The notes beneath the pieces were generated by a model. That model did not search any database and had not been told where the DNA came from. It was given only the letters and a program-made list of their open reading frames with translations. From NCBI GenBank assembly GCA_902728285.1, contig CACVBU010000964.1, forward strand, positions 248,001 to 312,000: a stretch of DNA of 64,000 nucleotides. The letters are read 5' to 3'. This document shows, one piece after another, positions 35,575 to 64,000 of the stretch. Made by a program: the position numbers and the translations under genes. Position 1 is the first letter of the stretch, and each line of letters begins with the position of its first letter. Origin of the DNA: Clytia hemisphaerica. Its lineage: Eukaryota > Cnidaria > Hydrozoa > Leptothecata > Clytiidae.

Positions 35575-36801
35575 TATTGAATTTAAAGTATAAGCTTTAT
35601 TTTATAAGCTTTGTAATTAACAAAAATAATAATATTGTATATTTTTTGTGTGTAATTCAATCCCATATTTATATTGTCAGATTGTTAAAATAATTTGTGT
35701 TATTTTTCCTGCCAAAAATTAATACGACCCCTTAAACTGATCTATTTTGGTGGAAATTTTAATTCGCATGCATCATCATCCAACTTTAATAATTTCTTTT
35801 ACCTCTGTAACTTTCACACTAGGCGTCAAATAAATTCCTTAGAAATTTCGTCAGAAAAAACTTGAAAAATTCCTGGGCATCTAAAACTTAGTTCAATTGA
35901 CCCTATCAGATCATAGTCAGTATTGATAACAATCTGGATAAGAAATCCTCTTGTATCTTTCTACTATTTAGATATCTCTACTTCTTCTTTCCCCATGGAA
36001 GAGTTGACAGAGGTCCTCTCCACGACAAAGTCTTGCAACAGCTTCAGTCCAGATAAAATACCACCCACTTATCTGGGTGGACAGGAATTTTCATGATATC
36101 TTTCTTAAAGCTTTACAGCTTCCTGTTTAAAGACAATTTTTAGCCTAATGAAATAATGGGTTAAGTAACCCTGCTTACCCCTATGGGGTAATCTACCACA
36201 TGCTGCTCTCTTGTGTATTCTTCTCGACGAAAATCATTTTGAAACGATTTAAAACTTTTTGAATTTTGATAGAATCTTATGAAAAGTACAATGTAACAGT
36301 CTATTCCTCTAAAGAATCCTGTATTGTAACACGCATGCGTAATTTTTCGCTCTTTAAACCATATGTAGTTAAATACCGTGATAATCAAAGAGGAATGAGT
36401 ACGTGGTACAGTCACTTTCGGTCGGGGTTGGGGACGGCGAAATCGTCTTTTTTATGAAATTTGTCGTTCTTTTTGACTATTTTTAGTAAATGTACTAGTA
36501 GGATTCTTTAGATAAACCCCCTCCAAGTATAAAGTTTTGGGTTGGAAACATCACATACGACCTCCTTGGGCTTCAAAAATCGAAAATAGCTTGGAGCTAA
36601 AGGGGTTAAGGCGGGGTTAATTTAAAGAGGGTGACTTTGAATCAAGGAGGGTTTACCTATTGTGTCTTGTTAGCTCTTTTTCTGTTTTTTTTTGTATTGT
36701 AAGTCAAACTTTTTATCATCCGAATCTAAAATCCAAAACTTTATCACATCTCCGTTTAACACGACACAGAGCCTAAGGGACCTCCAACCTATTGGGAAAA
36801 T
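35575..36801. other. Intergenic, no gene recognised
   Basis: AT-rich sequence with no coding signal that I can support. It ends at the microsatellite tail of the retrotransposon at 36802-41036. Confidence 0.4.
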
Positions 36802-36823
36802 TAATAATAATAATAATAATAAT
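36802..36823. repeat. (TAA)7 microsatellite, probable 3' tail of the retrotransposon
   Basis: Seven TAA units on the plus strand, equal to ATT units at the 3' end of the minus-strand element. It marks the probable 3' terminus of the CR1/L2-like copy. Confidence 0.65.
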
Positions 36824-37734
36824 GATATATTTCTGGCATTTCCAAAATTTACATTTGGCTCTTCACCTGAAAATTCTGTATATAATATATGTGCAATGTC
36901 TAGAAAAAAATTGTAAAATAACCTGGTAGTATACTGAAGAAAAATTGGGGCCGTATGCGGACAAGCAAATAGGGACGAAGCGGTGGGCTAGTATGACGAA
37001 TAAAATGATTAGGATTAAGAAGTATAAGGGGTAAAATGTGAATAGTGATAGAGCTAGACTAAAACCTAAACAAATCCGAGTATCTGAGTATGCTAGCTGA
37101 GGCCATCGCAATGTGTGCTATTATAAAAAATTAACGAATATATTTAAAAAAAAATACTAACATAATGTTATAAGCTAGACTAGACTAAGGTTCAAGTACT
37201 ATTGGTGGCTAGAGGTAAAGTAAGCGACAAAATAGATCTAAGAACTCGGTGAGATAGAATCACGACAGAGCGTAAGATAGAATGAGTAAAACTTGCATAG
37301 ATTGCAACACCGAAGGCTGTGTAAAAGTGTACTGGACCTTGCAAAACACGACCAGTATTTTGACATAAATAAGTGAGCTATCAACTATCTAAATTAAATT
37401 AATTGAAAATAATTAAACATCAAATGGAAAAAAAAAAAAAACTTCATAGAACTAGAATATAATAAAGTCATATATATGCACTGAAGAAAATACAGACTAA
37501 GTAAACCTAAGAACAGATGGGCTAAATCTAAAAATCAGAATGGAGACTAGGGAACCAAGGCTACGAGTAGGGATATTAGAAGAATTGAAGTCAGAATTAA
37601 TTTAAAACTAAAATGGCGCGTGAAACAAATCGAGAATTAGACTAAAACTAGGTATAAGAAATAATATAACATAGAAAGCACCAGCTAGGAAATAGCGAGT
37701 AGCGACGCAGGGACTACAGTTGGTAGAAGAGGTA

Positions 37735-39155
37735 CTACTGCAAGCTCCTAGCTAGGGCTTTGTCGAAAAAATATTTTTTTGTTTCTTGACAAAAGGCTTT
37801 GTAAGTTTCTGAGTCACGACAGTTAACAGGTAGTTCATTAAAAATTTTAGAAGCTTCAGATTCAAAGGAACCACTAACATTACAGGTTTCACGCAATTTA
37901 GTTCCACCAATTACATCCGTTCGAGTCTTGGCTTGCACATATTTCTCCATAGGGAGGAATTTGGGCCAGTCATTCATATTCACTGATTTCCACGCAAGTT
38001 TAGCCAAACTGTATTCGGTCCGTTCTTTGACAGGTAGCCATTTCATATCTATTACGTCAGACTTGCGAGAGTAGCTCTTCCGGACGAAGCTAGCTGTGGC
38101 ATTTTGGACTCGTTGTAATTGGTTGAATAGATATTGTGGTGCGTTGTGAATTACGGTATTACCATAGTCTATTTTACTCAATACAAGAGATTCTGCCAAC
38201 TGGCGTCGTACACGGTATGGTAAATATCGTTTGATGAGGGATAGACTCTTCAGCGTGCCATATGCTTTAGTGACGATTTTTTTGACATGTTCATTCCATG
38301 TTAGGTTTTCGGTGAAGATGATTCCTAACAGCTTGAATAGGGGAACACGCTCAATCACATTTTCGTTATTTGACTTGATTTCGAATTCAAAATTATGCCT
38401 CCTTGCCATTTGAGATGTGGCAAAGAGCATCGATTTAGTTTTTCTGGCGTTAAATATCAAGTTCGAATCCAGCGACCATTTCTCAATTACGCTAATATCA
38501 GAGTTCATTTCAGTGACACAATTTTCAAGCTCGTTTGGTTTGGTGTGGCGATATATAGTCGTGTCATCAGCATATTGAACACATTTTGCGGTGGTTTTTG
38601 TTGCCATGTCGTACACGTAAATGTTGAAGAGAATGGGTCCAAGTATGCTTCCTTGGGGGACGCCATTAGTAACTGTGAGAATGGATGACTTCTTGTCGTT
38701 GATCTGTACGTACTGAAGTCGATTGCTCAGATAGTTGGAGATAACATAGAGTGACTTTTTTGAGAATCGTAGTGTGTGAAGTTTTTTGATAAGAGTTTCA
38801 AAATCAACTGTATCAAATGCTTTTGAAAAGTCAGCGAGAACTGCAAGAGTGATTTCGCCTCGATTCATCGCTTTCAGGATGTCGTTTTTGATTTTGATGC
38901 AGGTGGTTATTGTGCAGTGACCCTTTCGAAAACCAGATTGATGTATTGATAGTAGTTCTTCACTTTCTAGATAGTTTGTCATTTGTGTCATAATCAGTCT
39001 CTCGTATACTTTTGAAAGGATCGGTAATATGGAGATTGGACGGTAGTCGCTCGGATCAGCGGGTGACTCAATTTTAGGAATAGGGCTGATTTTCGAGATC
39101 TTCCACTGGCTAGGAAAGACGGATTGTCGAATGGAAGAGTTGATAATATGGCAAA
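37735..39155 (-). CDS. Retrotransposon reverse transcriptase, frame-shifted continuation
   Basis: Continues the frame broken near 39155. It has SDYRPISILPI, HQSGFRKGH, VLADFSKAFDTVD, GVPQGSILGPILF, the catalytic CVQYADDTTIY and FKLLGIIF, then the C-terminal domain (SKIDYGNTV, LQRVQNATASF, FNELPVNCRD). The catalytic motifs are intact. The single-base shift is the only lesion seen between the two parts. The layout is that of the CR1/L2/Jockey group, which uses no RNase H domain. Confidence 0.88.
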
Positions 39156-41036
39156 TGGGACTACAATTTCATCGATGGCGAGTTTAATGTATTTCGACGG
39201 TATCTGGTCATGGCCGGTTGAGCAGTCGTTTCGAAGATTACATAAGGCTTTACGAACGTCAGCGTAGGAAACTTCGTTTATGTCGAATGGATTGTCTTGT
39301 GCAGGTAATTCGTTGATGAGTTGATGTAGGATTTGCTCTGATTTAGGTTTTGAGTTAAGAAGTCTCCCGGCTGTTGTGTTGAAGTGGACATTGAGTGTGT
39401 CGGGGTCAGCGGATATCTTTTGTGGTGATGGTTTCAGGATGCGATGGATGGTTGACCATACTTCTTTCGGTCTTTTGGAGGATAGTGCGCGTCGGTAAAA
39501 ACTGGATTTTGTTACTCGAATAAGAGTTTTTAATTCGTTTCGGATTTTACGAAACAGATCCCAATCTTTTTGCTCGGACTGCGGGGAATGACATTTGGTT
39601 CGTAAATAGTCTCTTTCCTTTTGCTTCTCGCTGATGTTGAGATCTTTTAACCACGGAGCTGGTGGGCGCGTTAATTTCTGCCTGATGAGGGGTGCGTGTC
39701 GGTCTAGACAATCGGTAAAAAGTTTGTTAAATATGTCTAGTTTTTCCTCAGCGGTATCAAAAGCGTAAACAAGATTGAACGGTATTTGTCTAATATCTGT
39801 TTTAAATGCTGCTACATTAAAGTTTTTCTCATTTCGAATAAATTTATATCTGGGTTCAAACCGTGGCTTGCGTAGATTACATATGACGAAGGCAGCATCA
39901 TGATCGCTCATTTCGTCGCATGGGATAACATCATCGTGGATGACTTTTGAGAATGAGGTAACGATATGGTCAATGCAGGTTTTTCCCTTCCGGGTTGGCT
40001 TCTTCACTTGTTGACGTAAACCGAGACGATCGAGGGTATCTTTATATTCGTCAGCAACGTTGTAGTTCTCTTTCAGGAGATCGATATTTGTATCACCAGT
40101 AATCACGATTGGATCAGACCAGATGGTGTGAACGTACGATATTAATGTTTCGAATTTTTGAAGCCAAGCACGTTTGTCAACGTCTTCGGAACTTGGTTGA
40201 TAGAAAACGGCTATAAGAAAGGGACTTTTCTTTCCCTTCACTTCAAACCACTGGTGTTCGATCGTTGTATCTTTCTTGTCAATGTCAGTTCTTGGGCGAT
40301 GTTTAATGCCGTCTTTGAAGTAGGCTCCCACGCCACCGCCACGTTTACCATTTCTGTTATTGTATCTGAAAGGATGATAACCGGAGAAGTTGAGTTGTCG
40401 GATGAGTGCAGGATTGTCAACGAGCCATGTCTCAGAGATTGTTAGGATATCGAACTTGTGTTTTAGGAGCATGGCTTCAAGTTGGGCAGTCTTATTTTTG
40501 ATAGATTGAATGTTAAGGTGCGCAATGCTGTAGTTGTTTCGGTTGGCATTTAGAAGATCCAACTGGATTTGAGTATCTTGTTGCGCTGGGATATCATTCA
40601 CGGTCGAGGGGTCTGATAGTAGAAAGTCTATATCGACATTGTTGAACGGTAATTCAGTAAGCAGACAGTCGTGACATGTCCATAAATTGTGTTTGTCTGA
40701 GAAGTTTTTTACAGTTTTATAAATACATTTTACGTGAGTCGAGTTGAGACAAACCTTGCATTCCAAGTGGTACGAATTCTTACGGACAGTTTTGGCACAA
40801 ACAGGACAAGCGAGCGGACCCGGATTAGTTTCGATGTCACCAGAGATGAGGAGTCGAAATGTTGCCGAATGATTTGCGTACAGATGGATCGGTGCACAAA
40901 ACCTCCGTTTTTTGTTGTGATTTTGACGTCGAGTCAAAAAGTCTTTGTTTTGAACTTTAAATTTCGATTTCTCGTGGCTTCTTCCCATTTGATGTAGAAA
41001 GAGATACACCATTACGACAAGCGCAGCTTCCTTCAT
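38994..41036 (-). CDS. Retrotransposon N-terminal part: 2A peptide, PHD finger, APE endonuclease, start of RT
   Basis: The first ATG is at 41036, with an in-frame TGA shortly upstream. Residues 4-14 are hydrophobic (AALVVMVYLFL), like a signal sequence. Residues 64-74 (ISGDIETNPGP) match the D(V/I)ExNPG-P ribosome-skipping consensus exactly, at 40815-40847. A PHD-like finger follows (ACPVCAKTVRK, HLECKVC, HVKCIY, WTCHDC). The endonuclease shows IAHLNIQSIKN, LTISETWL, GGGVGAYF, VITGDTNIDLL, CIDHIV and MSDHDAA. A linker leads to the RT start (GHDQIPSKYIKLA). The last 50 or so residues, after about 39155, are out of frame. Skipping at NPG-P would release a short hydrophobic leader and let the rest start with Pro. 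This activity is known for 2A sequences in sea urchin and other elements but not shown here. Confidence 0.85.
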   Translation of the reverse strand: MKEAALVVMVYLFLHQMGRSHEKSKFKVQNKDFLTRRQNHNKKRRFCAPIHLYANHSATFRLLISGDIETNPGPLACPVCAKTVRKNSYHLECKVCLNSTHVKCIYKTVKNFSDKHNLWTCHDCLLTELPFNNVDIDFLLSDPSTVNDIPAQQDTQIQLDLLNANRNNYSIAHLNIQSIKNKTAQLEAMLLKHKFDILTISETWLVDNPALIRQLNFSGYHPFRYNNRNGKRGGGVGAYFKDGIKHRPRTDIDKKDTTIEHQWFEVKGKKSPFLIAVFYQPSSEDVDKRAWLQKFETLISYVHTIWSDPIVITGDTNIDLLKENYNVADEYKDTLDRLGLRQQVKKPTRKGKTCIDHIVTSFSKVIHDDVIPCDEMSDHDAAFVICNLRKPRFEPRYKFIRNEKNFNVAAFKTDIRQIPFNLVYAFDTAEEKLDIFNKLFTDCLDRHAPLIRQKLTRPPAPWLKDLNISEKQKERDYLRTKCHSPQSEQKDWDLFRKIRNELKTLIRVTKSSFYRRALSSKRPKEVWSTIHRILKPSPQKISADPDTLNVHFNTTAGRLLNSKPKSEQILHQLINELPAQDNPFDINEVSYADVRKALCNLRNDCSTGHDQIPSKYIKLAIDEIVVPFAILSTLPFDNPSFLASGRSRKSALFLKLSHPLIRATTVQSPYYRSFQKYTRD

Positions 41037-41227
41037 CTTCTTTAGCAAAAATCAGCTCACTTCTTTTTAATTTGAGTGAGAATTTTAAGAAAAACTAATT
41101 TATTTTCACTCTTTTGACGTTAGTTTTCAAAAAAACGTCTAACCGTTGAGAAGTCGTTGCAGTGTGACCATAAATTTAGATTATTATAATCGAGTATTTT
41201 GAAGTACAATCTCTAACCCATCGATAT

Positions 41228-41331
41228 GAGTCCTAGTTGACACTCGACGTCCATATAACGTTTATCTAACGTTCACAACGTCCATATGATGTTAGATAAA
41301 CGTTGAAATAACGTTGTGTGCCGGCTGAGTT
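41228..41331. repeat. AACGTT-phased repeat, copy 3 (palindromic)
   Basis: The two halves mirror each other: tcctagttgacactcgacgt, then ccatataacg, ttatctaacg, and back through gttagataaacgttgaaat, aacgttgtgtgccggctga. AACGTT occurs at spacings of about 11 bases. It may be a complete element of which the other copies are halves. Confidence 0.65.
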
Positions 41332-41345
41332 AAGACTACATTCAC

Positions 41346-43153
41346 AATTAGCCTCCGTCTCGGAAGAGGACTGGGCCCGAATTTGCGGACGTTTTCACAG
41401 TTTCACTTTCGTTTTCGGCTATACGACAGCGTTTTCAAGCAGAAAGCAGAGGAAATCTGTGAAATTATTGCAGGGAATGCTAACCTATTTTTCCAGTGTT
41501 TCTCAAGATTGGAGCAAGATTATTGTTCTCGAAAGTTCATAAAGACCTAATAGTTTCAGATTAGTATGATTTCATCAGAAAAAACATTTACACCAAAGCT
41601 CCTTATTGATATGTGAAGGCTACCAAAAATAGCAATGTCCTCCATCAGAACAACTTTAACATAAGGGACAAGGACAGTCAAGAAGTCTACTTCTTTGTTG
41701 AAAATTTGCACAAAATACTTAGAGAAAATGGTACTATGGAAGCCCATTCTATACTCCTAAATGATAGTTGAAAGATCAGCAGTTGAGAGGGTTGATTAAA
41801 ATAGAACTCAAAGCACACAATAAAGTATACCATATATATTTGTCCAGAAAGAACTGGCATGTTGTTTGCTTTGTTTTGGTGTTTAAAAATATGTACTTAT
41901 CAGTCCTAAATAATACAAATTCGAATATAATGAGGGCAATGAGTCTGGTTAAATGTTACTATATTTACAAGAAAGGATTACTGAAAAAATACTACTGTAT
42001 GTACTACTGATGAACTAAAATCAAAAACTAAAACTTTACCATAAATTTACATTACGACAATTTAAAAATCTATCTTTAATAGCAACAAAGAAAAAAAACA
42101 TGGCTCAAAGTTTTAAAAACAGAGCTAGTCAGAACTTCAATTCAGTAGGTATAGAGCTTTCAAAATTTGAAAACAGACACTGCATTGGTTACTACAAGAC
42201 ATACTATCCACACGGTTTTTTCGATTCACGAAAAAAATAAAGTATTTATCAAAAAAAGGTTCTCTTTTTTTTTGGTAATCAATTCCAACAAACAACAATC
42301 AATATAACAGTTTTTTGGCAATCATCCCACAGTGTAAACATTATCAACCAACTAAACCCACACCGCCAAAATTGTAAAAATAAAGTCAATATAATTTCTA
42401 TCAACAATTTCTCGTAAAACTTTTTTTTCCAACATTCTGATACCAATCATGGCTGGAGGCATCATGTGTAGAGTGACTGTGTGGCATTTCTTTGCTGTTA
42501 ATGATCACGATACCAAACATCAACCCCCGCCAAGCCAAATCTGTCGATTAAAAATTTCCATTAAAATTATAATTGAAACTTATCTCGTAAAATGCTTTTT
42601 TCAACATTCTGGAGGTGTTCAAAGTTAGAGGTATCATATGTAGAGCCAAGCAATACATGAAAAGTCATTTGCTATCCCATTTGCCATGAGATATATGAGT
42701 CAACAAATCAAACAAAAACCAACAAATCATGTCTCTTCACTTTCATGTCACATCGTGTTTATATGGGGTATCAGAAAGCCAATCCACAAGAAGAGCCATC
42801 TTCCTTTATTATGGAGTGTTCCAAAACTATTGGTAGGTTGTTTGGAAGTAAAGAAACCCACACAGTTTGTTTTATTTTGAAGATTTAACTTGAAAACAAA
42901 CTGCATCTTTCCAGTAGAAACTCATGTTTCAACCTGCTACATAACACTGGTCAGTCGGGTCTGCTACTAACATGTAATAGTTTTATTATAGCCGAGCTTG
43001 AGAATCCGTAGGCAGAACTTGTAACATGTATTATGTGTATAATTATGTCAGTCGACTTGAATTATGATACATTACTTACATTTCACTGGATGCATTTTCG
43101 CTGTGAAATTATCCGCAAAATTTTCTGACCGCGTTCTGAGACGGAGGCTAATT
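41346..43153. mobile_element. Candidate 1.8 kb inverted-repeat element
   Basis: attagcctccgtctc at 41347 is mirrored by gagacggaggctaat at 43138-43152, and inner parts also correspond (tttgcgga, tttcacag). Inside, two diverged copies of a block of about 180 bp (ctcgtaaaa, ttccaacattctg, tcatgtgtagag) lie at about 42405-42490 and 42590-42675. No transposase frame is seen. Confidence 0.5.
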
Positions 43154-47910: not shown

Positions 47911-48639
47911 ATTTGATCATGCGAAACAGATAATATTCGATTTTTAAACATTTCCTCATCTGTTGTTAACATATGTATAAATGGATGAAGCAAACCAACC
48001 ACCTCGATCAAATGATAATTGTTAAATGATAATTGATAATTTTAAACCAATTCAATGGAATTATCGGTCACTGCATGTGGTATGTATAGTTTTGCACTAA
48101 GATATATTTACGCTCTCTCTAAACATGCACAAAATGTCGTTTGAGAAATCGAAGATAAATTAATAATGAGCTTAGTAAAGCTCAAATTGCAGATGTAGAA
48201 CGATAAGCTCGGTATACATTCACTCACCATCTGGATAAGGCTATCACTGTGTCTCACTAACATTCTGCCGATTGGTAATGTGAAGGTTTCGATCACAGAC
48301 TTGCACCGCAATGGACTGTGTTGGAATCCCAAGCACTACCAGGCAGGGTGTTAGGAAAATATGGGGATCGACTCTCTACCTTCACTCGTACAAATTAATA
48401 AATATCGTATAATATCGCAATATAATGATGAATAGATAATTCAATATCGTATCGTATATCAAGCCTAAAGATTAGTTCATTCATTCATTCCTATAAACAC
48501 TTATTCTCTGTCAAGGATAATGACAATCTCCAATCAAGAAAATTTAATCAGCAAATGTACCATAAGCCGTCAACTCTATCAATCGTCTGTAAACAGATCC
48601 GATATTTACAGAATTAATTGCTGTTTTGCGCTACGTTAT

Positions 48640-49004
48640 AAGTGAGATATACACTCTGCTACCGATTACTCAAAAGACTGACCAAAAAGCACAGTTCTTT
48701 CTTAACCCACCAGTTACATCTACATCGCCGATTAACTCAAAACTCACATCATCATCAAATTCACTACATCTGCAAAATCACCAACAACCATCAACTCCAT
48801 CTGCAAATTTACCATCAACCATCAACCTTATCTTAAGGCTCACCAAAAACCATCAGCTCCATATGTATATTGGCCGAAGAACATTTTTGTTTTGTCACCA
48901 GATTCACAAAAATAATCAACTAAAACTGCAGATTCCCAAAGAAAACTATCAACCTTTATTTGCAGATTACCAAAAAGGCAGGTTAACCAAAGACCGTTAC
49001 CAAA
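48640..49004. repeat. Decayed left flank of the 30-bp satellite
   Basis: Diverged units (catcaactccatctgcaaat, ttaccatcaacc) merge into the homogeneous array at about 49005. Edge decay is expected for arrays homogenised by unequal exchange. Open frames here are by-products of the repeat. Confidence 0.65.
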
Positions 49005-52000
49005 AATAATCAACTACATCTAAGATTCACCAAAGATAGTCAACTACATCTAAGATTCACCAAAAACTATCAACTACATCTAAGATTCACCGAAAAATAA
49101 TCAACTACATCTGCAGATTCACCAAAGATAGTCAACTACATCTAAGATTCACCAAAAACTATCAACTACATCTAAGATTCACCGAAAATAATCAACTACA
49201 TCTGCAGATTCACCAAAGATAATCAACTACATCTAAGATTCACCGAAAAATAATCAACTACATCTAAGATTCACCAAAGATAGTCAACTACATCTAAGAT
49301 TCACCAAAAACTATCAACTACATCTAAGATTCACCAAAAACTATCAACTACATCTGCAGATTCACCAAAGATAGTCAACTACATCTAAGATTCACCAAAG
49401 ATAGTCAACTACATCTAAGATTCACCAAAAATAATCAACTACATCTGCAGATTCACCAAAGATAGTCAACTACATCTAAGATTCACCAAAAACTATCAAC
49501 TACATCTAAGATTCACCAAAAATAATCAACTACATCTAAGATTCACCAAAGATAATCAACTACATCTAACGTTCTCCAAAGATAGTCAACTACATCTGCA
49601 GATTTACCAAAGATAGTCAACTACATCTAAGATTCACCAAAAATAATCCACTACATCTGCAGATTCACCAAAGATAATCCACTACATCTAAGATTCACCA
49701 AAGATAGTCAACTACATCTAAGATTCACCAAAAACTATCAACTACATCTAAGATTCACCGAAAATAATCAACTACATCTGCAGATTCACCAAAGATAATC
49801 AACTACATCTAAGATTCACCGAAAAATAATCAACTACATCTAAGATTCACCAAAGATAGTCAACTACATCTAAGATTCACCAAAAACTATCAACTACATC
49901 TAAGATTCACCAAAAACTATCAACTACATCTGCAGATTCACCAAAGATAGTCAACTACATCTAACATTCACCAAAGATAGTCAACTACATCTAAGATTCA
50001 CCAAAAATAATCAACTACATCTGCAGATTCACCAAAGATAGTCAACTACATCTAAGATTCACCAAAAACTATCAACTACATCTAAGATTCACCAAAAATA
50101 ATCAACTACATCTAAGATTCACCAAAGATAATCAACTACATCTAACGTTCTCCAAAGATAGTCAACTACATCTGCAGATTTACCAAAGATAGTCAACTAC
50201 ATCTAAGATTCACCAAAAATAATCCACTACATCTGCAGATTCACCAAAGATAATCAACTACATCTAAGATTCACCAAAGATAGTCAACTACATCTGCAGA
50301 TTCACCAAAAATAATCCACTACATCTAAGATTCACCAAAGATAATCAACTACATCTGTAGATTCACCAAAAATAATCAACTACATCTAAGATTCACCAAA
50401 AACTATCAACTACATCTGCAGATTCACCAAAAATAATCCACTACATCTGCAGATTCACCAAAGATAATCAACTACATCTAAGATTCACCAAAGATAGTCA
50501 ACTACATCTAAGATTCACCAAAAACTATCAACTACATCTAAGATTCACCGAAAAATAATCAACCACATCTGCAGATTCACCAAAGATAGTCAACTACATC
50601 TAAGATTCACCAAAAACTATCAACTACATCTAAGATTCACCGAAAAATAATCAACTACATCTGCAGATTCACCAAAGATAGTCAACTACATCTAAGATTC
50701 ACCAAAAACTATCAACTACATCTAAGATTCACCAAAAATAATCAACTACATCTGCAGATTCACCAAAGATAATCAACTACATCTAAGATTCACCAAAGAT
50801 AGTCAACTACATCTAAGATTCACCAAAAACTATCAACTACATCTAAGATTCACCGAAAAATAATTAACTACATCTGCAGATTCACCAAAGATAGTCAACT
50901 ACATCTAAGATTCACCAAAGATAGTCAACTACATCTAAGATTCACCAAAGATAGTCAACTACATCTAAGATTCACCAAAAACTATCAACTACATCTAAGA
51001 TTCACCGAAAATAATCAACTACATCTGCAGATTCACCAAAGATAATCAACTACATCTAAGATTCACCGAAAAATAATCAACTACATCTAAGATTCACCAA
51101 AGATAGTCAACTACATCTAAGATTCACCAAAAACTATCAACTACATCTAAGATTCACCAAAAACTATCAACTACATCTGCAGATTCACCAAAGATAGTCA
51201 ACTACATCTAAGATTCACCAAAGATAGTCAACTACATCTAAGATTCACCAAAAATAATCAACTACATCTGAGATTCACCAAAGATAGTCAACTACATCTA
51301 AGATTCACCAAAAACTATCAACTAATCTAAGATTCACCAAAAATTAATCAACTACATCTAAGATTCACCAAAGATAATCAACTACATCTAACGTTCTCCA
51401 AAGATAGTCAAGCAGCTGCAGATTTACCAAAGATAGTCAACTACATCCAAGATTCACCAAAAAATAATTCCACGGACGCTGCAGATTCACCAAAGAGATC
51501 AACTACATCGAAGATTCACCAAAGAGAGTCAACTACATCGGCAGATTCACCCAAATAATCCACTACATCTAAGCTTCACCAAGATAATCAATACATCGGG
51601 TGAGCATTCACCAAAAATAATCAAACGACATCTAAGATTCACCAAAAAACTATCACTCATCTGCAGATCACCAAAAATAATCCACTACATCTGCAGATCA
51701 ACCAAAGATAATCAACTACATCTAAGATTCACCAAAGATAGTCAACTACATCTAAGATTCACCAAAAACGATCAACTACATCTAAGAGTCACCAAAAATA
51801 AGCACCACCATCTGCAGATTCACCAAAGAGAGTCAACTACATCTAAGATTCACCAAAAACTATCAACTACATCTAAGATTCACGAAAAATAATCAACTAC
51901 ATCTGCAGATTCACCAAAGATAGTCAACTACATCTAAGATTCACCAAAAACTATCAACTACATCTAAGATTCACCAAAAATAATCAACTACATCTGCAGA

Positions 52001-54780
52001 TTCACCAAAGATAATCAACTACATCTAAGATTCACCAAAGATAGTCAACTGCATCTAAGATTCACCAAAAACTATCAACTACATCTAAGATTCACCGAAA
52101 AATAATTAACTATCTGCAGATTCACAAAGATAGTCAACTACATCTAAGATCACCAAAGATAGTCAACTACATCTAAGATTCCCCAAGCGAGTCAACTACA
52201 TCTAAGATTCACCAAAAAACTATCAACTACATCTAAGATTCACCGAAAATAATCAACTACATCTGCAGATTCACCAAAGATAATCAACTACATCTAATTC
52301 ACCGAAAAATAATCACTACATCGAAGAGTTCACCAAAGATAGTCAATACATCTAAGATTCACCAAAAACTATCAACTACATCTAAGATTCACCAAAAACT
52401 ATCAACTACATCTGCAGATTCACCAAAGATAGTCAACTACATCTAAGATTCACCAAAGATAGTCAACTACATCTAAGATTCACCAAAAATAATCAACTAC
52501 ATCTGCAGATTCACCAAAGATAGTCAACTACATCTAAGATTCACCAAAAACTATCAACTACATCTAAGATTCACCAAAAATAATCAACTACATCTAAGAT
52601 TCACCAAAGATAATCAACTACATCTAACGTTCTCCAAAGATAGTCAACTACATCTGCAGATTTACCAAAGATAGTCAACTACATCTAAGATTCACCAAAA
52701 ATAATCCACTACATCTGCAGATTCACCAAAGATAATCAACTACATCTAAGATTCACCAAAGATAGTCAACTACATCTGCAGATTCACCAAAAATAATCCA
52801 CTACATCTAAGATTCACCAAAGATAATCAACTACATCTGTAGATTCACCAAAAATAATCAACTACATCTAAGATTCACCAAAAACTATCAACTACATCTG
52901 CAGATTCACCAAAAATAATCCACTACATCTGCAGATTCACCAAAGATAATCAACTACATCTAAGATTCACCAAAGATAGTCAACTACATCTAAGATTCAC
53001 CAAAAACTATCAACTACATCTAAGATTTCACCGAAAAATAAATCAACCACATCTGCAGATTCACCAAAGATAGCAATCACTAATCTAGATTCACCAAAAA
53101 CTATCAACTACATCTAAGATTCACCGAAAAATAATCAACTACATCTGCAGATTCACCAAAGATAGTCAACTACATCTAAGATTCACCAAAAACTATCAAC
53201 TACATCTAAGATTCACCAAAAATAATCAACTACATCTGCAGATTCACCAAAGATAATCAACTACATCTAAGATTCACCAAAGATAGTCCAACTAATCTAA
53301 GATTCACAAACAAAAACTCTCAACTACATCTAAGATTCACCGAAAAATAATTAATTACATCTGCAGATTCACCAAAGATAGTCAACTACATCTAAGATTC
53401 ACCAAAGATAGTCAACTACATCTAAGATTCACCAAAAACTATCAACTACATCTAAGATTCACCGAAAAATAATCAACCACATCTGCAGATTCACCAAAGA
53501 TAGTCAACTACATCTAAGATTCACCAAAAACTATCAACTACATCTAAGATTCACCGAAAAATAATCAACTACATCTGCAGATTCACCAAAGATAGTCAAC
53601 TACATCTAAGATTCACAAAACACTATCAACTACATCTAAATTCACCAAAAATAATAACTACATCTGCAGATTCACCAAAGATAATCAACTACATCTAAGA
53701 TTCACCAAGATAGTCAACACATCTAAGATTCCCCAAAACTATCAACTACATCTAAGATTCACCGAAAAATAATTAACTACATCTGCAGATTCACCAAAGA
53801 TAGTCAACTACATCTAAGATTCACCAAAGATAGTCAACTACATCTAAGATTCACCAAAAACTATCAACTACATCTGGAGATTCACCGAAAAATAATCAAC
53901 TACATCTAAGATTCACCAAAAATAATCAACTACATCTGCAGATTCACCAAAAATAATCAACTACATCTAAGATTCACCAAAGATAGTCAACTACATCTAA
54001 AATTCACCAAAAACTATCAACTTCATCTAAGATTCACCAAAAACCACATCTAAGATTCACCAAAGATAGTCAACTACATCTAAAATTCACCAAAAACTAT
54101 CAACTTCATCTAAGATTCACCAAAAACCACCAACTACATCTGCAGATTCACCAAAGATAGTCAACTACATCTAAGATTCACCAAAAATAATCAACTACAT
54201 CTAAGAATCACCAGAAATAATCAACTACATCTAAGATTCACCAAAGACAGTCAACTACATCTAAGATTCACCAAAGATAGTCAACTACATCTAAGATTCA
54301 CCAAAAATAATCAACTACATCTAAGATTCACCAAAAATAATCAACTACATCTAAGATTCACCAAAGATAATCAACTACATTTAAGATTCACCAAAAATAA
54401 TCAACTACATCTGCAGATCCACCAAAGATAGTCAACTACATCTAAGATTCACCAAAAATAATCAACTACATCTAAGAATCACCAGAAATAATCAACTACA
54501 TCTAAGATTCACCAAAGACCAAAGAGTTCACCAAGAGACTAGTCAACTACATCTAAGATTCACCAAAAATAATCAACTACATCTAAGATTCACCAAAAAT
54601 AATCAACTACATCTAAGATTCACCAAAGATAATCAACTACATTTAAGATTCACCAAAAATAATCAACTACATCTAAGATTCACCAAAGATAATCAACTAC
54701 ATTTAAGATTCACCAAAAACCATCAACTACATCTGTAGATTCACCGAAAAATAATCAACTACATCTGCAGATCCACCAAA
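49005..54780. repeat. 30-31 bp satellite array, about 190 units, with higher-order structure
   Basis: The monomer is tcaactacatctaagattc plus accaaaaacta. Variant monomers carry ctgcag in place of ctaag, gatag/gataa ends, or ccgaaaaataa. A rare marker monomer (aacgttctcc) falls at 49568, 50144, 51390 and 52626, giving a higher-order period of about 1.24 kb plus one shorter step of 576 bp. Monomers contain TAA in one frame and are not coding. Units in parts of 51.4-52.4 and 53.0-53.7 kb carry many single-base indels. Confidence 0.95.
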
Positions 54781-54975
54781 AACCATCAACAACAAACGGG
54801 AGATTCGCCTTAAGCCATCATGCAGCTAATGAGATTAAAATATGTCGATTCACGAAAAACCATTAAGTCTGTCTGCAAATTTGCTAAAAAAACCATCACA
54901 TTTGCATTTACCAGAAAATTCCCCAAAAACCATCACCATCACATGAGATTCGCCAAAAGCATCATTCTAAAAACA
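54781..54975. repeat. Decayed right flank of the satellite
   Basis: Loosely spaced remnants of the monomer (accaaaaaccatca, gagattcgcc, aaaccatca) fade into unique sequence by about 54975. Confidence 0.6.
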
Positions 54976-56953
54976 GCCATTTTGACAAAATAGGTCAGCT
55001 CGACTTCAGATCTGATTACCAATTGTTTTTGATACCATGAAGCGTCTTTAATTTTGAAATGTTCTATCTGTTGTACGTCCTTATTTAAATGCTATCAGCT
55101 TCCCACATAAACAATGGCCAATTTTTGTTTTTTTCTATAGGGTTGCTTTTATCAATAACCAGAAACAAAGAGCGGCTCCTCCTGAACTTTATACCTAAAC
55201 ACATGGTCTTGAGAGTTTACAATTGATGAATATAGTAAGTTTAATATTTAATCTCCTATTTTCATTCGTTATACTAAAAATAGGATATTTAGTTGTCTTT
55301 CCAATTTTATTGAAATTTGAATAATGAGGTCGCCTCAAACCCCTGCAGAATTTCTTCAACATATCACCGAAAAAACAACAATAGAGTAAAGCCATACGCA
55401 AAACACATACTTAAGAACGCATTCTCTACCTGCTTATTTTTTTAAAGATGTCAAAACAAAAATGCAAGATATTGACGTAAACTCAGTGGTATAACCCCGC
55501 TGTTAGCTTTTTTTATATTTTTCGGATACAAAAACAGACAAATTTCAATTAATTAAGTTAAAGCTAACCATTAATTACGTTAAAGGAGTCATTAATTAAC
55601 TTAATTAAGTCAATAGAGTGCACCCGTTGAGTGTGTTTGAGAGATCATTCATTGAAAGTTCTTTATTTAGGTTTTAATTTTGCAGGTGTTTTAAAAGGTT
55701 CCTTATATAGCGACATAAACATTGCTATTATAAGCTTCGAACACACAGTTTGTGCATCAGAGAACCTTCATTCGTGTCTCTATAGCGGCTTATATTATGC
55801 TCCAATGTCACGGACCCGTAAGAGCACCACCCCTCCCCCATTAAATACTTTATTTAACCTTTTGTGCGCGCTGTTTTTTTAACTTAACGAATGTTTGAAT
55901 TTGTTATTCTGTCGAGGCATTGAGAGACAGGAAGCAAGACCGTTTACCCAAAGTATTTTGGCTTTTGAATGATTCTCTTTTAACAATTTGACGGCGTTGT
56001 TACAGGCTAAATACAAGAAAATTTATTGTTTCGAGCTAAAAAAAACGTCAGTGGGTTTAGTTTCTGAGTGCCACTTTTTCATTAAGTTGAAAGGATGGAA
56101 AGAGTTAATTTCCTAGTGGGGCTGAAATTGTAGGGTATTTTACACTCGGCTATGAAATTTTGACCAGCATTTCCAGTGGGACAGGAGTCTAACCGGCTCC
56201 TGTTGCTGTGACACAAAGTTTTCTAAATCCATGATTAAGAAGATGATTTTTACTTTGAGTTTATTTTTCTGTCATAAATAGAAATATATATATTGTTATA
56301 TTGTTGTGTTATTCGTAGTTTGTAATTGGCGTGGGTTGAATTCCCGTTTGGTAGCTCAACAATATCCAGGCTACAGTTCATTTCTATTTTTCTATTAATA
56401 TCACCAATATTTTACATATTTATTTCCGAAGACAATTTTTTTTTTGAATTTTAAGGACTACAACAGTCTGAATTTGGGAAGGAATTCAGTGGATGGCGAA
56501 AGAAAATGAACTCTTTAGGGAACTTAATTTGGCATATTTTAGGTAAATTCGTTAAATCCGCCAAATTCTTTTCTCGCGAAAATTTCTACCGGGTGTCTCT
56601 GAAAAAACTTTCCCCTGTTTGATTCAAAATTGCGAAAAAGTGAAAAAATATATTAGCTTGATTTTTTCGAAATCGTTTAGAGGAGGGTTCAACTTAAATT
56701 TTGGTATATCAAACTTTAAAATTGCTTCATTAGACCAAAAGTTATGACAAAAAGAGTAAAAAAGCTTTTTTCAAAAAGAGCGAAAAAAGACGAAAAAACA
56801 GGGTATCAAATCTTTTGTTAGAGAAAAAGACACTCAAACTTTCTCTTCTCCACTCAAATAACTCGCTAAGCTTTGGAAACTTTTGGAAAAATTTTGATAA
56901 AAGTTTGTTGCTTGTTTAAACTTCTTGCTCATTAATGAATCCAAAAGGAGGGA
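54976..56953. other. Intergenic, no gene recognised
   Basis: AT-rich sequence. It includes a TTAATTAA-rich patch at 55545-55610, with ttaattaagttaa and its near mirror. A short part near 56525-56590 (aatttggc, ccgccaaattc, cgcgaaaattt) recalls the interior of the 19808 element. No protein-like frame is supported. Confidence 0.4.
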
Positions 56954-58369
56954 TCAGGTCGGGTTAGCGTGAGGCATGGCCACGAACTGAATTGATATTT
57001 TCACTGTTCAGTTGGTAGCCAGGAATTGAATATGATAAAAATACAGACCGACAACTGCTCCTCCTACTTTCACTGTTCAGTTCCTGGCCAAGATTCCACC
57101 CATGATCAGTTCAGCTCGTAGCCAGAACCCCACCCAAGATCAGTTCATTTCGTAGCCAGAACCCCACCTATGATCAGTTCAGTTCGTAGCCAGAACCCCA
57201 CCCATGATCAGTTCAGTTCGTAGCCAGAACCCCACACAGGAGCAGTTCAGCTCGTAGCCAGAACCCCACACAGGATCAGTTCAGCTCGTAGCCAGAACCC
57301 CACCCAAGATCAGTTCAGTTCGTAGCCAGAACCCCACCCATGATCAGTTCAGTTCGTAGCCAGAACCCCACCCATGATCAGTTCAGCTCGTAGCCAGAAC
57401 CTAAACTGAGATCAGTTCAGCTCGTAGCCAGAACCCCACCCATGATCAGTTCAGCTCGTAGCCAGGACGCTACCCAATATCAGTTCAGCTCGTGCCAGGA
57501 CGCTACCCAAGATCAGTTCAGCTCGTGCCAGATCCCCGCCCATGATCAGTTCAGTTCGTAGCCAGAACCCCAACCAAGATCAGTTCAGTTCGTAGCCAGA
57601 ACCTCACCCATGATCAGTTCAGTTCGTAGCCACAACTTCACCCATGATCAGTTCAGCTCCTAACCAGGGTGCTACCCAAGATCAGTTCAGCTCGTAGCCA
57701 GGGTGCTACCCAAGATCAGTTCAGTTCAGCTCGTTGCCAGAACCCCACACAGGATCAGTTCAGCTCGTAGCCAGAACCCCACCCATGATCAGTTCAGTTC
57801 GTAGCCACAACTCCACCCAAGATCATTTCAACCCCACACAGGATCAGTTCAATTCGCAGCAAGAACCCCACACAGGACCAGTTCAGTTCGTAACCAGGTC
57901 CCACCCATGATCAGTTCAGCTCGTAGCCAGAACCTACCCATGATCATTTCAGCTCGTAGCCAGTGCGCTACCCAAGATCAGTTCAGCTCGTGGCCAGAAC
58001 CCACCCATGATCAGTTCAGCTCGTAGCCAGAACCTCAACTGAGATCAGTTCAGCTCGTAGCAAGAACCCTACCCAAGATCAATTAATTTTGTAGTCAGTA
58101 AGCCACCCATCATCAGTTCACTTTGTAGCCAGGACCTCACCCAAGATCAGTTCATTTCATAGCCAGAACTCTGTCTATGATCATTGCAGTTTGTGACTAG
58201 GAAAGACCCCACCCATGATCAGTTCAGTGTGTGGCAGGGTTTCAAACCATGATAATTTGCATTCGTGAACCAGAACAAAATTCTTAATTTTTGACTTCGT
58301 AATAAAAGCCAGGACCCATATCCCCTTTCCTCAGGTCGGGTTGGCGTGAGGCACGGGTACAAACTGTAC
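56954..58369 (+). repeat. 34-bp minisatellite, about 35 copies
   Basis: The unit is gatcagttcagttcgtagcc plus agaaccccacccat. The array occupies about 57040-58260 and is bracketed by two copies of ggtcgggttagcgtgaggca (near 56958 and, with one change, near 58336), which suggests it expanded inside a larger repeat. Degenerate units lie at both edges. The same unit occurs in reverse orientation at 63185-64000. Confidence 0.95.
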
Positions 58370-63184: not shown

Positions 63185-64000
63185 TCCTGACTACGAACTG
63201 AACTAATCATGGGTGGGGTCCTATACGGTCTGACTTGATCTAGGTTGGGGTTCTGGCTACGAACTGAACTGATCCTGTGTGGGGTTCTGGCTACGAAATG
63301 AACTGATCATGGGTGGGGTTCTGGCTACGAGCTGAACTGATCTTGTGTGCGGTTCAGGCTACGTACTGAACTGATCATGGGTGGGGTTGTGGCTACGAAC
63401 TGAACTGATCTTGGGTGGGGTTCTGGCTACGAGCTGAACTGATCCTGTGTGGGGTTCTGGCTACGAACTGAACTGATCATGGGTGGGGTTCTGGCTACGA
63501 ACCGAACTAATCTTGGATGGGGTTCTGGCTACGAACTGAACTGATCCTGTGTGGGGTTCTGGCTACGAACTAAACTGATCATGGGTGGGTTTCTGGCTAC
63601 GAACTGAACTGATCTTGGGTGGGGTTCTGGCTACGAACTGAACTGATCATGGGTGGGGTTCTGGCTACGAACTGAACTGATCCTGTGAGGGGTTCTGGCT
63701 ACGAAATGAACTGATCCTGTGTGGGGTTCAGGCTACGTACTGAACTGATCATGGGTGGAGCTGTGGCCACGAACTGAACTGATCTTGGGTGGGGTTCTGG
63801 CTACGAGCTGAACTGATCCTGTGAGGGGTTCTGGCCACGAAATGAACTGATCATGGGTGGGTTCTGGCTACGAGCTGAACTGATCTTGTGTGGGGTCCAG
63901 GCTACGTACTGAACTGATCATGGGTGGGGTTGTGGCTACGAACTGAACTGATCTTGGGTGGGGTTCTGGCTACGAGCTGAACTGATCCTGTGTGGGGTTC
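63185..64000 (-). repeat. 34-bp minisatellite, inverted copy, about 24 units, cut by window end
   Basis: The plus strand reads ggttctggctacgaactgaa then ctgatcatgggtgg, the reverse complement of the 56954-58369 array unit. Variants (gagctg, gtgtgggg, cttgggtg) match variant units of the first array. It continues beyond the window. Confidence 0.95.

Follow-up and report, generated by a model that had tools for sequence, protein, structure and literature searches.

A predicted StopGo/2A leader with a separate hydrophobic core in a CR1/L2-like retrotransposon of Clytia hemisphaerica

The minus strand of a 64,000-nucleotide stretch of Clytia hemisphaerica DNA carries an element that is best explained as a recent, full-length, single-ORF CR1/L2-like non-LTR retrotransposon with a StopGo/2A leader. 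The leader is predicted to split off from the downstream enzyme during translation. We give this reading, which is drawn from sequence, a probability of about 80%.

Results

Overall organisation of the element

The whole stretch that we analyse, referred to as the window, corresponds to positions 248001-312000 of contig C666, and the genome that we search comprises 417 Mb in 951 contigs. The first-pass annotation gave no strand; the ORF lies on the minus strand and starts at the first ATG, at window 41036, with the N-terminal reading MKEAALVVMVYLFLHQM... The features are as follows.

36802..41164, minus strand: full-length single-ORF non-LTR retrotransposon with an (ATT)n 3' tail, 4363 bp (blastn against 17 fetched copies)
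41037..41164, minus strand: 5' UTR of 128 nt, without upstream ATG and with no space for an ORF1
40995..41027, minus strand: hydrophobic core AALVVMVYLFL, residues 4-14, signal-peptide-like (hydropathy)
40893..40976, minus strand: polar spacer, residues 21-48, loosely constrained (dN/dS between family pairs)
40815..40892, minus strand: extended 2A, residues 49-74, running from the API..YANH stretch to the end of NPGP (codons of family A versus A')
40815..40838, minus strand: 2A/StopGo core octapeptide DIETNPG/P, predicted break Gly73/Pro74
40665..40808, minus strand: PHD-like C4HC3 zinc finger, residues 77-124 (PF00628, 15.6 bits, below the cut-off of 24)
39900..40517, minus strand: AP-type endonuclease domain, residues 174-379 (Pfam PF03372, 1.4e-10)
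38386..39078, minus strand: reverse transcriptase (RT) domain, in a frame different from that of the N-terminal part (Pfam PF00078, 4.3e-35)

In blastn comparison, 11 of the 17 fetched copies start at query 1434-1438, where the end of the window element is 1437, that is, around window 41164. The remaining six start at query 1428-1531, between 9 bases before and 94 bases after window 41164. At the other end, all seven copies inspected, the window copy included, share the 3' end at window 36802 and the (ATT)n tail. A short tandem repeat at the 3' tail is a feature of CR1/L2-like retrotransposons. The two end sequences of the element are unlike each other, and the flanking stretches of the window copy that we compared for a target-site duplication share no word of 6 or more bases. 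Because the 128-nt 5' UTR contains no ATG before 41036, we take the element to be full length, with a single ORF and without ORF1.

The N-terminus agrees with the first-pass annotation: in the ORF from 41036, the hydrophobic AALVVMVYLFL is followed by an exact ISGDIETNPGP at residues 64-74. The PHD finger that the annotation placed directly after the 2A is also found, as a PHD-like finger. Its match to PF00628 spans the whole profile (positions 1-47 of 47) with a score below the curated cut-off, as do the matches in all three elements scanned (the window element, L037, and L082). The 10 aligned representatives all show the same C4HC3 pattern of Cys, His, and Trp residues, in which the Trp precedes the last Cys pair. 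The AP-type endonuclease and the RT follow in this order. As the annotation had noted, there is a single frameshift downstream; the frame change lies near 39.15 kb, within the RT, and the RT frame is then open until a stop codon that ends at 37735. An open frame of 1105 aa is found in four related copies (C303, C500, C805, and C907). The closest of the fetched relatives, L053, is 99.5% identical over 4366 bp, which fits a recent insertion of the window copy, in line with the earlier claim.

The annotation further placed the 2A-like sequence N-terminally in an APE-type retrotransposon, and this holds for the single-ORF element described here. Odon et al. 2013 reportedly describe 2A-like sequences in APE-type non-LTR retrotransposons, often with a single ORF, and the clades that bear them are said to include CR1, L2, Rex1, and Ingi. 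The window element resembles the elements reported there in having a 2A-like sequence in an APE-type element. In the accessible text of PMC4120745, a PHD domain in the N-terminal part is common in CR1/L2 elements, and single-ORF elements with an N-terminal PHD domain are known as CR1 subgroup 6 and L2 subgroup 4. That text, in the part available to us, makes no mention of 2A for these subgroups, and the word "ribosome" occurs 0 times in its main text.

A search of window 36500-41600 against Rfam at a permissive threshold gives four matches, all below the gathering score and none of them a ribozyme. Since Rfam gave only such sub-gathering matches, the presence of a ribozyme at the 5' end, or of another known RNA element, is rejected. 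No tRNA gene is found in the 64-kb window with the bacterial code, and a search for relatives in viral contigs gives two stretches that fit a pattern, neither of them confirmed.

Apart from the element, the window contains tandem repeats. A 30-bp unit is repeated in ~192 copies at window 48999-54794, with strong strand asymmetry (GC skew ~-0.3 to -0.5), and no ORF of at least 150 aa overlaps window 48500-55000. Arrays of 34-bp units occupy window 57096-58169 and 63187-64000, and the consensus unit of one array matches the reverse complement of the other's at 33 of 34 positions.

Elsewhere in the assembly, contig C900 (14551 bp) codes for part of a COX1 with three TGA codons in frame, and its AGA and AGG codons stand at positions where Arg is conserved. 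This agrees with mitochondrial code 4 and suggests a non-bilaterian, probably cnidarian, source.

Sequence and conservation of the 2A

The octapeptide DIETNPGP, encoded at window 40838-40815 on the minus strand, fits the 2A/StopGo core (D/G/C/N)(V/I)ExNPGP exactly. The window contains this pattern a single time without mismatch; when up to two mismatches are allowed, at least one match is found in 6 of 100 shuffles of the window. The 2A is in frame between coding parts, the frame being open from the ATG across the finger and the endonuclease. The octapeptide is preceded by RLLISG, which by eye resembles the L-rich StopGo class with D at p12. In viral StopGo sequences, this class ends in (A/S/C)G before the Asp, according to the accessible part of PMC12846837. 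An alignment read by eye gives RLLISG upstream of the box in family A, RLLLCG in B, DILLSG in C, NIVLSG in D, and SIVLSG in F.

Conservation of the box in sister copies was the test that the first-pass annotation had set in advance, and the box is kept. A 393-residue query that includes the 2A yields 1009 candidates, of which 105 matches are scored. Among the 55 scored matches that cover query residues 64-74, 51 have a canonical box, three have a changed box, and one box is unread (C851). This count is biased in favour of the box, as the query itself contained the 2A and scoring covered only 105 of the 1009 candidates. The boxes are taken from fetched loci, except for two C884 matches taken from the genome places of GDIETNPGP. 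The changed boxes read NTGP (L071, the family-E representative), NPGS (L072), and DVKI (L074), in open frames of 431, 489, and 308 aa, respectively. In the portion of PMC12846837 at hand, the E, N, P, G, and P positions of StopGo are almost fixed, so these three copies are expected to be weak or inactive. The canonical boxes include those of L075, where Asp replaces the Gly that normally precedes the box, and L087, which has a stop upstream. The annotation had also called for copies with an intact frame. All 16 copies with frames of at least 900 aa have the canonical box, and three of them (C692, C712, and C43) have one stop inside the match. The integrity of the leader is lost in L016/L045, where it is out of frame with the Met, and in L017/L046 and L087, which have a stop in the leader.

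Codon comparisons between families are independent of this count. In both A-A' pairs compared, the 26 codons of residues 49-74 differ at seven synonymous and no nonsynonymous positions. For the same residues, dN/dS is 0.05 each in B-B' and D-D', with 2 and 3 nonsynonymous differences, one of those in D-D' lying inside the octapeptide. The dN/dS of the spacer (residues 21-48) is 0.82 and 0.40 in the two A-A' pairs, 0.51 in B-B', and 0.30 in D-D'. The box is kept between families as well. In the pairs A-C, B-C, and A-B, the octapeptide is 75-88% identical, the highest of all parts measured; the corresponding values are 35-46% for the PHD finger, 45-52% for the endonuclease, 11-47% for the spacer, and 15-35% for the signal region. 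Synonymous divergence is low in the first 48 codons in A-A', B-B', and D-D' and mostly higher downstream, so part of the similarity of the leaders may reflect constraint on the nucleotides. The low synonymous divergence at leader codons 1-48 hints at such a constraint, for example an internal promoter.

Along A and A', identity per 60-base step is mostly 90-98%, with one step at 75%, up to +860 nt from the Asp codon of the 2A (window ~39978), and mostly 63-83% beyond this point, in comparison with L047-L050. The two families have a mosaic appearance, as if the 5' module (leader, 2A, and finger) had been exchanged.

Proposed function of the leader

The 73-residue leader would consist of a signal-peptide-like core, a polar spacer, and the extended 2A (StopGo). 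If the 2A is active, the nascent chain at the 2A would block formation of the Gly-Pro bond, and the leader would be released with NPG at its end. The ribosome would resume at the Pro and make a separate PHD-endonuclease-RT protein. Having no hydrophobic N-terminus, this protein would be able to enter the nucleus. Where skipping fails, the hydrophobic N-terminus would stay on the chain and direct it to the ER. The core may engage SRP or the ER, and the released leader may have a role of its own. The use of a 2A in a retrotransposon of this kind is known; the two-part leader looks like a variant of it.

Hydrophobic core and its distance to the break

In L042, the family-A representative whose leader has the same letters as that of the window element, the best mean hydropathy over 11 residues is 2.82, a value reached by 8 of 20000 shuffles of the leader. 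Across ten representatives of families A-F, picked for readable start peptides, the best 11-residue mean within the first 20 residues is 2.31-3.35, and the observed values are reached by 4 to 523 of 20000 shuffles. The least striking is D1 (523). All ten of these chosen representatives, from six families, have the hydrophobic 11-mer at the N-terminus, despite changing letters. In all ten, a core of ~10 residues follows a short n-region; the n-region of the family-F representative lacks Lys and Arg. A decayed copy, L075, has no hydrophobic core in its 53 readable residues.

The distance from the end of the core to the P-site Gly is 59 residues in family A, 49 in B, 58 in C, 57 in D, 55 in E (measured in a copy with a changed box), and 55 in F. 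In family C, the spacer is shorter and there is an insertion nearer the 2A, and the total is still 58. In two G copies, a hydrophobic segment lies upstream at 56 and 59 residues, within open frames that are longer and carry additional hydrophobic segments (five in L007 and three in L082). With its end 59 residues from the break in the window element, and 49-59 across the families, the core is separate from the 2A.

The first-pass annotation pointed to sea urchins for 2A sequences that also act as signal sequences. Such a double function exists, and it was tested in NLR immune proteins rather than in retrotransposons, as far as the accessible text of PMC4981915 goes. SpNLR2A resembles the leader of the window element in being N-terminal, hydrophobic, and of 2A type, and its skipping determines whether the product goes to the cytosol or the secretory pathway (PMC4981915). 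According to the same excerpt, signal and 2A are one 26-residue stretch in the sea urchin proteins, whereas in the window copy they are two parts and belong to a mobile element (PMC4981915). Closer to the sea urchin sequences are L008, L001, and L094, in which the hydrophobic stretch directly abuts the 2A, 9-10 residues from the Gly. The Helitron-like loci described below and L094 have no distant core, and L093 has hydrophobic segments at 35 and 5 residues. In the open-licence literature, we find no report of such elements having a signal-like core that is set apart from the 2A by a fixed distance, and nothing that combines a 2A sequence, a retrotransposon, and a cnidarian.

A probable role of the hydrophobic core is that of a signal peptide, either for unskipped chains or for the leader. 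At clearly lower odds, the 2A works while the hydrophobic N-terminus is no signal peptide and has no role in targeting. The enzyme of a retrotransposon must act in the nucleus, and the signal region is more divergent than the 2A (15-35% identity between families), both of which fit this alternative. However, the 11-mer is kept at the N-terminus of the ten chosen representatives from six families, and the distance from core to break stays at 49-59 residues.

The same distances allow a further reading, in which the core would be just out of the exit tunnel during the 2A pause, allowing SRP to bind and to deliver the ribosome with the element's RNA to the ER membrane ahead of leader release. We consider this unlikely. 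It is suggested by the spacing in families A-F and in the G copies, which is close to that of XBP1u, where the hydrophobic region HR2 lies ~52 residues from the PTC when the nascent chain pauses and SRP is recruited (PMC6624018, accessible part). The likeness is one of geometry, and XBP1u differs in that it pauses without release and restart (PMC6624018). The constant total in family C, in spite of its altered spacer, speaks for the timing. However, equal spacing is not independent evidence, because the families share ancestry, which could also explain the similar distances. In addition, the open frames of the G copies are longer and contain further hydrophobic segments, the Helitron-like loci and L094 do without a distant core, the 2A pause is possibly too short, and there is no known reason for the element to need the ER.

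2A sequences elsewhere in the genome

The pattern encoding the octapeptide occurs at 361 genomic places, of which 193 are on the forward and 168 on the reverse strand, and the stricter GDIETNPGP at 60. StopGo motifs are said to be very rare in cellular coding sequences in the accessible part of PMC12846837. The 2A loci that we read represent at least three types of mobile element.

One of these is Helitron-like and is represented by L008 with L092 (G000 C149, ~70500-78448, minus strand) and by L001, L004, and L005. It starts with a hydrophobic leader and CGDIETNPG/P, followed by a herpes-tegument-N-like domain (PF04843, 8.8e-8), repeats, DUF6570 (2.7e-20), and a PIF1 helicase (9.8e-29), and it ends with an endonuclease-like part (PF03372, 0.00083, below cut-off). 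A Rep part is seen by eye (REP_ORF2-G2P match 0.0044, below cut-off). The frame of the L008/L092 copy is broken within L092. In the genome, 143 Helitron-like matches are scored of 459 candidates. Among the literature matches listed, none reports a Helitron with a 2A-like sequence or ribosome skipping, and the same holds for Helentron with 2A peptide.

The leaders of L008, L001, and L004 share S..YR..IG.F ahead of the 2A with L094 1-501, a PHD-less endonuclease element. In stretches chosen by eye beforehand, the local scores are 40, 36, and 44, which are reached by 6, 31, and 2 of 20000 shuffles, respectively. Possibly, one 2A leader cassette has moved between element classes.

The variety of these elements bears on whether the NPGP box is kept for the function of the protein, as a linker to the PHD finger, without recoding. 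Pro74 lies three residues ahead of the first Cys of the zinc finger, at a place where recoding is a prediction. However, the residues upstream of the box resemble a StopGo class, and the same box precedes an endonuclease-like start without PHD in L093 and L094 (by eye) and a herpes-tegument-like domain in the Helitron-like L008, which makes the linker function very improbable. A chance motif in a decaying repeat, which the frame break in the window copy might suggest, is rejected, given 361 sites against ~0.17 expected genome-wide from base composition, 0 places for the reversed-pattern control, and the purifying pattern over residues 49-74.

Discussion

With 361 octapeptide sites, those read being spread over at least three types of mobile element, the genome of C. 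hemisphaerica offers natural variants of the 2A. Such variants bear on the reasons that mobile elements have for splitting off a leader, and on whether a hydrophobic leader and a programmed pause cooperate. If the spacing between core and break is functional, ribosome skipping would be linked to the membrane targeting of an RNA. The leader would then be a timed targeting device, with SRP taking the RNA to the ER during its translation and skipping then freeing the nuclear enzyme; we regard this as a long shot on present evidence. If true, the timed leader would be a mobile element's counterpart of XBP1u, based on recoding.
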